Shown here piece after piece: positions 24,315-29,563 of a DNA stretch of 64,000 nucleotides (within the stretch, counting starts at the first letter, position 1; every line of letters begins with the position of its first letter). Location of the stretch: contig NC_013526.1 of the NCBI RefSeq assembly GCF_000025005.1, positions 992,001 through 1,056,000 on the forward strand, in the 5' to 3' direction. This stretch comes from Thermobaculum terrenum ATCC BAA-798 (GTDB taxonomy: Bacteria > Chloroflexota > Chloroflexia > Thermobaculales > Thermobaculaceae). The notes beneath the pieces were generated by a model. The model did not search any database and was not told where the DNA came from. It worked only from the letters and a program-made list of their open reading frames with translations. The position numbers were made by a program, and so were the translations under genes.

Positions 24315-24512
24315 TTACACCGAGCCGGTCAGGCAGACGAAAGGATTAGAGTTGCCGCTGCTCCCTGGGCCTTCCTCTGGCAGGGAGCAGTTATTGTTGG
24401 CAACAACCTGTCCTTTGACGTTGTAGTCAGGAAGGTTACCGTGCTGGCCCAGCGTCAACCTCGTTAGGCCGCCGTACTCCACTAGTGTGGGTGCTGTATA
24501 CGTCTTGGTCAT
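24315..24512 (-). CDS. Lasso-type RiPP precursor peptide 1
   Basis: A 65-residue peptide with the leader motif of lasso precursors, YxxPxLxxxGxxxxLT: YTAPTLVEYGGLTRLT (residues 5-20). With the usual Thr at the second-last leader position (Thr20, Leu21), the core would begin at Gly22 and read GQHGNLPDYN; Asp29 is then core residue 8, giving an eight-residue ring from the Gly amine to the Asp side chain. The core would have 44 residues, about twice the usual length, with two Cys (core positions 21 and 39) and a penultimate Ser (Ser64) that a lasso kinase could phosphorylate. Precursor 2 shares the ring pattern GxxGNxPDY. The exporter follows, and both cyclase genes lie upstream. Confidence 0.85.
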   Translation of the reverse strand: MTKTYTAPTLVEYGGLTRLTLGQHGNLPDYNVKGQVVANNNCSLPEEGPGSSGNSNPFVCLTGSV

Positions 24513-24732
24513 CTACTTTGTCTCCTTTTGAGCGACGTTTCTATGGCATCCCTCCCGCTCAAGGAAGGATGCCAGTCAGAAGGGCGAGCTGCCTGCCGGG
24601 TGCGCAGCAGCGGAGCCTCGCCCGCCCAGATCCACATTCACCCCCAATATCGTGCATCAACTGGCGCAAGACATTGTGAGGATGTACCTGATACAGGTTA
24701 TCAGCAGGATATGCCCGTGGCGTATCCTTAAT

Positions 24733-24749
24733 ATTGAGGTTAAGTTGAG
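24733..24749 (-). promoter_or_regulatory. Tandem CTCAAC-N5-CTCAAT box before precursor 1
   Basis: On the minus strand CTCAAC (24749-24744) and CTCAAT (24738-24733) are 11 bases apart, in the 275-base gap between the methyltransferase stop and precursor 1. The box is 221 bases from the precursor ATG, which leaves a long untranslated leader in which I see no gene. Confidence 0.55.
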
Positions 24750-24787
24750 AGTTGATAGCAGCCGCATGCGATCTGAGAACTCCTGCC

Positions 24788-26113
24788 TCAAGCCTCCAAA
24801 GAGGGCTTTCGCAGGACAGCGATGTACCCTCGTACGGGCTCGCCCCTCTCCAGCCGAAGCGTGCACGCCTCCAGCTCGAGCAGCACCAATCCAGCCCGGG
24901 TGGAGGCCTCCCGCAGGTAGCCCTCGCTGTGCGCATACCTGCCTGCCGCGTGGAGGACGTAGTTGCCGGAGTCGGCGCGCTCGAAGGACGCAGCCACCAC
25001 ACCTCCAGCCCTGATAGCCCTGGATGCGCTGCTGAGTACGGGCAGGAGATCACCGAAGTAGACCAGCACGTCTGCCATTACTATCAGGTCGTAGAGCTCG
25101 TACGTGCCGGCGAGGCACTGCGTGAGCTCGGCGCATATCAGCTCGTCGTAGACCCCACGCTCCCTGGCCCTCTCCAGCATACCCCTGGACAGATCAACTC
25201 CCACCAGCCTGCGGGCAACAGGGCGCAGTAGAGGTCCACAGAGCCCCGTGCCACAGCCAGCATCCAGCACATCCAGCTGCCATGCCCTCGCGCCGAGCCA
25301 GCGCGTCGCCACACCGACCACCAGCTCGGGCGCGCGGTACCTCAGCACCTCGCGCAGCTGGGCATCAAAGCTGGAGGCGAACCTGTCGAAGTGATGGACG
25401 ATGAAGCCGTCCGGCGCCCGCGACGGGGCGTAGCTCCCCTTTAGTGCCTCGAGGATAAAGGGGATCTCGGGGTTGTCGGGGGCGAGGGCGCTGCCGCACT
25501 CCAGCACTCTCAGCGCCTCCGCGGTTCTGCCCTTGACACGGTACACGGTCGCCAGCGTCCAGTGAGCGTCGGAGTAGCTCGGATCGAGCGCCAGGGCGGC
25601 TCGGAAACACTCTCTGGCCTCCAGTAGCCTGCCCAGTGAGCATAGGGCGTTCGCCAGGAAGAAGTACGACCTGGGGCGTTCGAATTCGAGCGCCAAGGAT
25701 CTGCGACAGTGTTGCTCGGCCTCAGCGAATCTTCCCACCTCCTGCAAGGCGCCTCCCAGTGCGCAGTGGGCCTCGCCACACTCTGGGTCTAGCGCTATCG
25801 CCTGCTCAAACGATGCCAGGGAATCTGGGAGCCTACCCAAGTCGTACAGCACCTTCCCCAGGCTGCAGTGTATGGAAGGGCTACCCGGATCGCAGCTCAA
25901 CGCCTCTCGGAGGAAGCCCTCCGCAAGCTCCAGTTTACCCGTCCTGTGCATGATGCGCCCCAGCAGGTGCAGTGCCTGCGGCCTGGAACCTCGGTGCAGC
26001 AGGGCGCGGCGACAGGCTTCCTCAGCTTCGACGTACCTGTGCTCCCCGTACAGCCTGCGGGCCTCATCGAGCTCGTCTAACTCTGGCCTCGTACACATCA
26101 CACCGTCCTCCAC
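24788..26113 (-). CDS. TPR protein with SAM-dependent methyltransferase domain
   Basis: A 441-residue fusion. Residues about 10-215 are five to six TPR repeats (for example ALHLLGRIMHRTGKLELAEGFLREALSCDPGSPSIHCSLGKVLYDLG). Residues about 250-435 form a class I methyltransferase: motif I LDVLDAGCGTGLCGPLL, the acidic end of strand 2 VGVDLSRGMLERA, then YDLIVMADVLVYFGDL and the GGVVAASFE strand. The TPR part presumably holds a protein or peptide substrate. It begins four bases after the cyclase 1 stop, so it belongs to the lasso operon and may methylate the precursor. The start is GTG 26113 or ATG 26098; both have GAGG-type sites at proper distance. Confidence 0.85.
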   Translation of the reverse strand: MEDGVMCTRPELDELDEARRLYGEHRYVEAEEACRRALLHRGSRPQALHLLGRIMHRTGKLELAEGFLREALSCDPGSPSIHCSLGKVLYDLGRLPDSLASFEQAIALDPECGEAHCALGGALQEVGRFAEAEQHCRRSLALEFERPRSYFFLANALCSLGRLLEARECFRAALALDPSYSDAHWTLATVYRVKGRTAEALRVLECGSALAPDNPEIPFILEALKGSYAPSRAPDGFIVHHFDRFASSFDAQLREVLRYRAPELVVGVATRWLGARAWQLDVLDAGCGTGLCGPLLRPVARRLVGVDLSRGMLERARERGVYDELICAELTQCLAGTYELYDLIVMADVLVYFGDLLPVLSSASRAIRAGGVVAASFERADSGNYVLHAAGRYAHSEGYLREASTRAGLVLLELEACTLRLERGEPVRGYIAVLRKPSLEA

Positions 26114-26117
26114 AGGC

Positions 26118-28106: not shown

Positions 28107-29128
28107 GCCTCACCCTCCAGATCCCGTAGGAGCGCTGCGTACACTTTGTCCTGATGCTCGAACCCGCTGGGATAGCTGAGCAGCCTCACTGGCACCCGGC
28201 GGACGACCTCGCTGTAGACAGGCAACAACTGGGCCGCATCCTCGGGCTGCAGGAGCGCTCGCAGCGCCGTGTGCTGGGTGAGTGCAACCAGAGCCGCCCT
28301 GCCCTGCAGGGGCGTGATCACCACATCGTCGCTGCGCCATCGCCCTGGATCGTACCTGTCGAGCAGATAGATGGCCCTTACGCTCGTGGGGAGCTCGCTG
28401 AATGCTCCTGTACCTTCCAGGCTGAGCAGGTGCTTATCGTAGCCAGGTATCAGCGCGTGCAGGCCCTCCTCCCCGCCGAGCACCCTGACGGCAGTGTGCC
28501 GCCAGAGCCTGACTACCGGTACGCCCGGGAAACCCAGGACCCCGGAGGACGAGACCCCCAAGGGCAGGGCGTCGTCGGTGAGCACAGCGTGCCCCCTGAC
28601 CATGAAGGCGCTGAGCATGGTCGTCTTCCCCTGCCCCTTGTCCCCCAGGAACACCGCCGCGCCCCGATCGGTGATGACCGCGCCCGCGTGGAGCACCGGA
28701 CGCCCCAGCCTCTGGACGGCGAACACCCCGACCTGGCCAAGCAGGACGTGCCCCAGGATATCGGCGGGGACATCCCTCTCGGGGTAGACCTCTACTCGTC
28801 TCCGCTCGGGGAGCAGGTGGAACGTCCCGACCGTGTCATGCCAGAGCCAGAGGCCATCCTCGCCCTGGTGCAGGCGCGTGGCCACGCGGCCCTCGTGACA
28901 ACGGCCATAGCAGCGCATCTCGGCGAGCACTGGGCCCTCGAGGGGAGCTAGCCCTCCGCCGTCGCTCGCAAGGACCATCTCCAGCTCCGGCTCCGGTCGG
29001 GGCTCCCCTCGAACGGGAGCTATGGGCAAGGGCACGTCGCTGCGTACCAGGAGACCGTACATGGCGTACAGGTCCGACCCCTGGGGGAAGCTTCCGGGTT
29101 GGTCATCACGGGCGTGGTATCTAATCAA
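28103..29128 (-). CDS. Lasso-cluster HPr-kinase-like kinase 1
   Basis: A 341-residue relative of HPr kinase, the type that in some lasso clusters phosphorylates the C-terminal Ser of the precursor. Visible are VLHAGAVITDRGAAVFLGDKGQGKTTML, whose P-loop is GDKGQGKTT, and VLTDDALPLGV with the DD metal pair. The reading frame extends far upstream without homology; I place the start at TTG 29128, which has AGGAG eight bases before it and gives an N-terminus that aligns with kinase 2 (YGLLVRSDVPLPIAP against HGLRVRSQLELPIPE). The stop overlaps cyclase 1 by four bases. Precursor 1 has a Ser next to last; precursor 2 does not, so the two kinases may not share a target. Confidence 0.82.
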   Translation of the reverse strand: MIRYHARDDQPGSFPQGSDLYAMYGLLVRSDVPLPIAPVRGEPRPEPELEMVLASDGGGLAPLEGPVLAEMRCYGRCHEGRVATRLHQGEDGLWLWHDTVGTFHLLPERRRVEVYPERDVPADILGHVLLGQVGVFAVQRLGRPVLHAGAVITDRGAAVFLGDKGQGKTTMLSAFMVRGHAVLTDDALPLGVSSSGVLGFPGVPVVRLWRHTAVRVLGGEEGLHALIPGYDKHLLSLEGTGAFSELPTSVRAIYLLDRYDPGRWRSDDVVITPLQGRAALVALTQHTALRALLQPEDAAQLLPVYSEVVRRVPVRLLSYPSGFEHQDKVYAALLRDLEGEA

Positions 29129-29332
29129 TAAGAATTCTCCTGCTATAGGCTCTTGAGAGCAAGCATAGTGGGCGTACCTGCAGGATAGGTGGAGCAGCAG
29201 TTGAGGTAAGGTGTCGGACGGCAGGGATGGACAGAGCTCCTTTGGATGCCGTAGAGGTGCCAGGCCATGCGCGCGAGCACCCGCCCCAGTGCTCAGCCTC
29301 CCCCCGGCGATGCCAGCACCCAAAGATGAGAC

Positions 29333-29360
29333 CTCGGCAAGGCCGGTTGACCTTGCCGAG
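29333..29360 (-). terminator. 10-bp hairpin after lasso precursor 2
   Basis: A perfect 10-base stem (CTCGGCAAGG / CCTTGCCGAG) with an 8-base loop begins 29 bases after the precursor 2 stop. On the minus strand it is followed by a short T-rich run (TCATCTTT). It probably ends or attenuates transcription, raising precursor over kinase and cyclase message. The rest of the 261-base gap to the kinase TTG shows no gene; a single CTCAAC (29205-29200) with a weak partner CTCCAC lies in it. Confidence 0.6.
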
Positions 29361-29389
29361 TCACCCGCACCGGACGCCAGTAGTTACGC

Positions 29390-29563
29390 TTAGAAGCGCA
29401 CGCACGCGCCGTACGGCACGTTGTTGGTGCACGTAGGGTTGTTGTTGTCTATGACCAACTGATTGTTGGAGACGACGTAATCGGGCTTGTTGCCGGTTGC
29501 GCCAGCGGTTCTATCTTCTACCCTGCCGTACTCCTTGAGCTCGGGGCTCCTGTACTCCTTCAT
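29390..29563 (-). CDS. Lasso-type RiPP precursor peptide 2
   Basis: A 57-residue peptide. The leader has YRSPELKEYGRVEDRT (residues 4-19), matching YxxPxLxxxGxxxxxT. The core would start at Gly21 as GATGNKPDYV, with Asp28 at core position 8 for an eight-residue ring, the same GxxGNxPDY pattern as precursor 1. The 37-residue core is rich in Asn (DNNNPTCTNN) and has two Cys (core positions 25 and 34) that could form a disulfide, and ends VRF. GGGAGGTGA lies six bases before ATG 29563, a strong ribosome site that rules out the longer reading upstream. It sits right after cyclase 2 and before a hairpin, a typical precursor arrangement. Confidence 0.84.
   Translation of the reverse strand: MKEYRSPELKEYGRVEDRTAGATGNKPDYVVSNNQLVIDNNNPTCTNNVPYGACVRF

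Follow-up and report, generated by a model that had tools for sequence, protein, structure and literature searches.

The 64,000-nucleotide stretch of DNA analysed here (the window) covers positions 992001–1056000 of the C2 chromosome of Thermobaculum terrenum, one of two chromosomes in a genome of 3.10 Mb, and holds a locus identified as the tbi ("therbactin") lasso-peptide operon, with two divergent precursors, TbiA-alpha and TbiA-beta. These precursors are predicted to give lasso peptides similar to class IV, and the product of the beta type is probably glycosylated by a GT41 enzyme encoded in the same operon, the already published TtOGT. Taken as a whole, a class IV-like tbi operon whose beta peptide is glycosylated by TtOGT is our best explanation of the locus, and a reasonably probable one. 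The GT41 gene at the operon end, which was overlooked in an earlier note on this DNA, is likely the most interesting part of it.

Two precursors with a cysteine pair in the tail

TbiA-alpha (29390–29563, minus strand) is a 57-residue precursor with a leader at residues 1–20 (MKEYRSPELKEYGRVEDRTA) and a 37-residue core (GATGNKPDYVVSNNQLVIDNNNPTCTNNVPYGACVRF) holding Asp8, Cys25, and Cys34. TbiA-beta (24315–24512, minus strand; 65 residues) has its leader at residues 1–21 (MTKTYTAPTLVEYGGLTRLTL), followed by a 44-residue core (GQHGNLPDYNVKGQVVANNNCSLPEEGPGSSGNSNPFVCLTGSV) with Asp8, Cys21, and Cys39. Both share a leader Thr at position −2, Gly1, Asp8, and the sequence GxxGNxPDY, and their tails are Asn-rich, Asn making up 22% of the alpha and 16% of the beta core. 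The alpha leader is identical to PDB 5v1v_C, deposited as "TbiA(alpha) Leader Peptide", while the beta leader corresponds to PDB 5v1u_E, from which it differs only in the designed T(-5)E change, and scores above the curated cut-off of the lasso leader family NF033521. The borders between leader and core match the deposited numbering, as Thr(-5) of PDB 5v1u lies five residues before the beta Gly1. These matches, the Shine-Dalgarno-like sequence ahead of both precursor open reading frames (ORFs) (GGAGGTGA for alpha), the operon shared with lasso genes, and the conservation of the cysteines argue that the ORFs are not due to chance. The core set of a lasso cluster, formed by an RRE protein (B1; PF05402), a leader peptidase (B2; PF13471/NF033537), and an Asn-synthetase-like cyclase (C; PF00733), is encoded together with the precursors. 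The earlier note had placed two lasso precursors here, with the leader motif YxxPxLxxxG and Thr at −2, GxxGNxPDY with Asp8, and Asn-rich cores of 44 and 37 residues with two Cys each, and all of this was found as described.

Cyclase searches over Chloroflexota revealed tbi-type clusters in the genomes G095, G293 (two clusters), G370, G158, G300, G279, and G422, a sample of few clusters from mostly draft genomes, in which the gene order B1-B2-HprK-C-A-ABC is largely conserved. Their cyclases and both window cyclases form one 10-row clade with 99% SH-aLRT support. Eight intact precursors are available, the two in the window and six from five other genomes, with cores GATGSQPDYIFVNGQLINNNNSPTCTSNVVSGACVTTP (G158), GQTGGSPDNIIVNGQLISVNNVCNPSEPHPGLICS (G293-a), GSGWGWADFWVFGISDPIGNCARNSCARS (G300), GVGGTAPDIPGIPNNICATGTVVNTSGSTVTITCASTSG (G293-b), GTGGTLPDFVGTNIVNNNCGTQTFTGSTNGTTSVFSRTSCSSS (G370), and GQGGSLPDFEGNVVVNNTCPTGTFLEDGQTRTRVGCLNSPATGS (G422). 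The G279 precursor falls beyond the contig end. In a ninth homologue, from G095, the reading frame keeps Thr at −2 and Asp8 and then has no Cys, whereas an alternative frame holds two Cys and a stop; this is taken as a break in a draft gene.

Across the eight intact precursors, which vary from 29 to 44 residues in core length, there is no variation in Thr at −2, Gly1, Asp8, or the number of tail Cys, which is always two, and no Cys lies in the ring. The joint chance of the two tail Cys would be ~1e-9 if the sequences were independent, a value that is overstated for related sequences. Gly1 and Asp8 are kept in all nine homologues, as is the leader Thr (in the window pair and seven further ones), so that the conservation of Asp8 and Thr expected from the earlier note is borne out, while the Pro of the YxxPxL leader motif is lost in L070. 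On the other hand, GxxGNxPDY, which the note had regarded as defining the type, was rejected as a family signature, since N5, P7, and Y9 vary among the homologues. Other Chloroflexota lasso clusters, including those neighbouring the clade, have cores without this tail Cys pair. What is new here among the lasso clusters of Chloroflexota is, as read from the genes, the coincidence of a well-supported cyclase clade with precursors of this anatomy.

Beyond these members, a precursor-profile search of 158 class genomes found only G095 convincing as tbi-type outside the window, weaker matches being other lasso leaders or noise, and class searches around G293, G158, and G422 gave no further ones. Plasmid records held only distant cyclases (<60% identity), and a scan of genome contigs with both cyclases returned one close relative, L003, the rest being distant.

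Each leader is bound by TbiB1, as seen in crystal structures (PDB 5v1u, 5v1v). From homology, B2 would cleave after position −1, the residue following Thr(-2), and the cyclases would link Gly1 to Asp8, resulting in an 8-residue macrolactam around a threaded tail of 29–36 residues. Lasso formation is, on these grounds, very likely. A tail-tail disulfide would then be the most likely fate of the two tail Cys; the loop it closes is predicted to be too big for the 8-residue ring and hence to serve as a stopper. Such a disulfide, which we consider likely, is suggested by the clade-wide conservation of the cysteines and by published precedent: class IV is defined by a single disulfide within the tail, which acts as a plug (PMC7549694), and in published cases the disulfide forms without a dedicated enzyme. 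The tbi-type precursors share with the class IV peptides pandonodin, LP2006, and felipeptins the two Cys placed in the tail, which in those peptides are joined by a disulfide. They also share a very long tail with pandonodin (33 residues, 18 of them in the tail), which a 2026 review (PMC13352647) lists as the record holder for tail length. They differ from class IV in their cores of 29–44 residues, in the kinase and GT41 genes, and, in the window, in a single operon that carries a pair of cyclases along with the pair of precursors. No solved structure resembles the alpha core detectably in sequence.

The structural variation was thus not "new" as the earlier note had proposed, given that the locus had been described as tbi and that class IV already provides an established case of long tails closed by a disulfide between tail residues. 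The same locus, with identical B1 and leaders, is that of PDB 5v1u and 5v1v. The peptide is named therbactin in a passage of PMC11420955, and still termed a "putative lasso peptide" in one of a 2025 paper (PMC12325987). These passages deal with leader recognition only, and do not discuss the cores, the Cys pair, the relatives, or GT41. No paper on the mature product was found in a literature that did not include the original 2019 PNAS paper.

The note had left a choice between a tail locked by a disulfide and one that is cut off later, and the conserved Cys pair favours the former. If the tail were trimmed by a protease, the mature peptides would be ordinary class II lassos of 15–25 residues and the Cys part a discarded follower, as the cores of about twice the usual length might suggest. 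Nevertheless, a discarded segment fits poorly with exactly two tail Cys in every intact precursor, the conserved set B1-B2-kinase-C-A-ABC includes no extra protease gene, and Cys-free long cores elsewhere in the phylum (33 residues in L079 and 31 in L031) indicate that length alone is no sign of trimming, which makes this a quite improbable outcome. The cysteines could also serve another purpose, such as an intermolecular bridge, a metal site, or attachment to a protein or cofactor. This would agree with the very variable distance between them (4–20 residues) and with the lack of conservation from the last Cys to the C-terminus; however, the number of Cys is fixed at two and their place is always the tail, never the ring, as in class IV lassos, whose disulfide needs no dedicated enzyme in the published cases, and we regard such a role as equally improbable.

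The GT41 enzyme TtOGT and its candidate substrate

The last gene of the operon (20861–22450, minus strand; Tter_2822) encodes a TPR-GT41 glycosyltransferase identical to PDB 5djs save for the K341M mutation of the latter, which identifies it as TtOGT (PMC4683255). It follows the ABC exporter gene after 13 nt, and GT41 genes lie directly behind the lasso ABC gene in all four beta-type clusters, the gaps measuring 18 nt in L069 and 25 nt in L070, while the two genes overlap in L074. The beta-types (beta, G293-b, G370, and G422) have their Cys 16–20 residues apart with 4–11 Ser/Thr between, whereas in the alpha-types (alpha, G158, G293-a, and G300) the distance is 4–10 residues with 1–3 Ser/Thr. 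Loop length and the GT41 gene are associated: 16–20 residues in the four beta-types, each with the gene, and 4–10 in the alpha-types G293-a, G158, and G300, beside whose clusters no GT41 gene is found, the sole GT41 of G293 being that of its beta-type cluster. The family is absent from the whole draft genomes of G095, G158, G300, and G279, an absence that weighs less for G158, only 66% complete. GT41 is uncommon in Chloroflexota, being present in 9 of 400 genomes, four of which are among the eight with tbi-type clusters (Fisher p ~8e-6), and carriers without such a cluster, as far as they were looked at, have the gene outside lasso clusters.

The transferase has been assigned in print to a "functional O-GlcNAc system" (PMC4683255), that is, to general intracellular O-GlcNAc signalling with the O-GlcNAcase TtOGA, in which case its place next to the lasso genes would be accidental. 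That study found both enzymes to be co-expressed cytoplasmic proteins, showed TtOGA to act on O-GlcNAc proteins, and observed slower growth in the presence of an OGT inhibitor. The same study, however, reported no in vitro activity of TtOGT on hTab1 or on any peptide of a library, and detected no O-GlcNAc-modified proteins; it further described a narrow substrate groove and the lack of relatives in the Chloroflexi genomes published by 2015. The genomic distribution also speaks against this role. TtOGA lies on the other chromosome of T. terrenum, and no gene of GH84, the O-GlcNAcase family, is present in G293, G370, or G422, whose only GT41 is the lasso-operon copy, so that GT41 follows the lasso cluster and not the hydrolase. 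T. terrenum and G216 have both GT41 and GH84, a combination missing from G293, G370, G422, G332, G374, and G398. Together with the tight spacing behind the lasso ABC gene in the four tbi-type cases, and with an active-site residue, Tyr419, that may select a sugar smaller than GlcNAc (PMC9715652, 2022), these data make the signalling role rather unlikely.

Instead, the most likely role of TtOGT would be to glycosylate Ser/Thr of the beta-type peptide, within the long loop between its two Cys. That the enzyme modifies the beta peptide is, judging from the gene arrangement, an evenly balanced proposition, and we give the same even chance to the broader proposal that TtOGT and related enzymes act as glycosyltransferases of lasso peptides, with the tail disulfide loop of 16–20 residues in the beta-types O-glycosylated, possibly with a sugar smaller than GlcNAc. 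Compared to the bacterial GT41 OGTs (TtOGT and XcOGT) and SPINDLY, the novelty lies in the lasso-peptide substrate proposed here, the window gene itself being TtOGT. The catalytic Lys341 is conserved in relatives, and the other lasso-linked copies have the SPINDLY-like Tyr419 as well, apart from one with Phe at this place. A grouping of the lasso GT41s as one clade was neither shown nor rejected (p-AU 0.18). An N-glycosylation sequon (NxS/T), which may be considered only as an alternative GT41 target, occurs not only in the four beta-types but in G158 as well, where no GT41 was found. PMC4683255 does not mention "lasso" or "operon", and a lasso peptide as GT41 substrate was unproposed in the papers found, the one paper with both topics being a general review on amide bonds.

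In G216 (L089 and L090), tandem TPR-GT41 genes, about six of them in L090, occur outside any lasso cluster.

Operon organisation, cyclases, and kinases

From their shared strand and spacing, 11 minus-strand genes running from B1 (33312) to GT41 (20861) are inferred to form a single operon, in the order B1, B2, HprK-like 1, C1, A-alpha, HprK-like 2, C2, TPR-methyltransferase, A-beta, ABC exporter, and TPR-GT41. TbiB1 (33046–33312; PqqD family, PF05402) matches PDB 5v1u_A at 100% across 89 residues, start residue excepted, its start having been taken from the PDB construct. The transglutaminase-like B2 (32616–33056, start inferred; PF13471) reaches 64.5 bits against NF033537 (cut-off 33). The ABC exporter (22464–24221; PF00664 and PF00005), syntenic with those of the relatives at 49–67% identity, would export the products. 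Between C2 and A-beta lies the TPR-methyltransferase (24788–26113), with TPR and Methyltransf_11/25 domains, of which no full-length counterpart was seen among the related lasso clusters.

Cyclase C1 (29688–31730; PF00733, 117.6 bits), which adjoins alpha and whose real start is probably within the listed ORF, shares 58% overall identity with C2 (26118–28106; PF00733), located upstream of beta, which scores 315 bits against the lasso cyclase family NF033535, below its cut-off of 525. Both genes are mosaics, with patches of 84–96% DNA identity against a background of ~50–70%, which point to gene conversion. A pairing of C1 with the alpha-type and C2 with the beta-type cyclases was unsupported, as C1 and C2 pair up even without these patches, and the phylogeny does not separate a duplication within T. 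terrenum from the joining of two clusters as the origin of alpha and beta.

The two HprK-like kinases (31649–32626, and 28103–29113 with an uncertain start) score far below the family cut-offs, with weak HprK_rel_A matches in both and a weak Hpr_kinase_C match in the first. Nevertheless, the His-Lys-Asp-Asp motif reported for lasso kinases is invariant in 12/12 HprK-like sequences, and the AlphaFold model of kinase 1 (pLDDT 90) has a PEPCK/HPr kinase fold. They probably phosphorylate Ser/Thr of the precursors. An HprK-like gene with this motif in the operon is shared with paeninodin PadeK, ThcoK, SyanK, and pseudomycoidin PsmK. Contrary to the substrates of those kinases, which are modified at a C-terminal Ser, neither window precursor offers this acceptor, as alpha ends in RF and beta in GSV; Ser-terminal precursors are found only in L003, L070, L072, and L074.

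Several further features were observed at or near the locus and elsewhere in the phylum. Right behind the alpha stop codon lies a strong inverted repeat (CTCGGCAAGG...CCTTGCCGAG; ~29330–29361, minus strand), possibly a partial terminator or mRNA stabiliser. Downstream of the operon, two Tat-signal proteins with long Ser-Pro repeats are encoded at 17957–18757 and 18827–19771 (minus strand), and a relative of these in G095 (L083, 2347–2529) is likewise located behind a lasso ABC gene. The other chromosome of T. terrenum holds a second, distant lasso cluster with B1, B2, and cyclase (L027 in G000:C1, ~6770–9951, minus strand), whose precursor may be a small ORF immediately downstream, ending in SGGNWIADSGSLQGSTPSC. 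Finally, L033 (G024, ~3269, plus strand) encodes a lasso-like precursor ending in ITQSEICKNAGTGDTITIGTSVITGIPGSSVISCSS, in which one Cys falls within the predicted ring region and a second lies close to the C-terminus, the arrangement that a class III ring-tail disulfide requires.

Weight of the evidence and implications

Several points weigh against the proposed maturation of the tbi peptides. The mature product, its mass, its disulfide, and its sugar are all unseen so far, the model being drawn from genes, and no disulfide-forming gene is found in the operon, though reports indicate that none is needed. The association of a long Cys loop with GT41 (4/4 versus 0/3, p = 0.03) uses a division into alpha- and beta-types that was set post hoc, after viewing the data, and four sequences per type are a small sample. 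C1 and C2 group together, and not with the cyclases of the alpha- and beta-types, partly through gene conversion. Nor do the precursors conserve the C-terminal Ser that lasso kinases are known to modify. Furthermore, one GT41 from G216 that lies outside any lasso cluster is placed among the lasso-associated copies, and the growth effect of the OGT inhibitor reported in 2015 is not accounted for by a lasso-peptide substrate.

If the proposal is true, the tbi-type products would surpass in length every lasso peptide recorded so far, the 2026 review giving 33 residues for pandonodin, and would use as stopper a tail disulfide whose size varies freely. The orphan TtOGT, whose structure dates from 2015 and which is cited for a bacterial O-GlcNAc system, would gain a concrete candidate substrate from its own operon, and the decade-old failure to detect its activity would be reduced to one in vitro reaction. 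A GT41 enzyme that modifies a ribosomal natural product would in addition offer a new tool for peptide glycosylation. For T. terrenum itself, the transferase side of the proposed O-GlcNAc signalling would turn out to be a peptide-maturation pathway.

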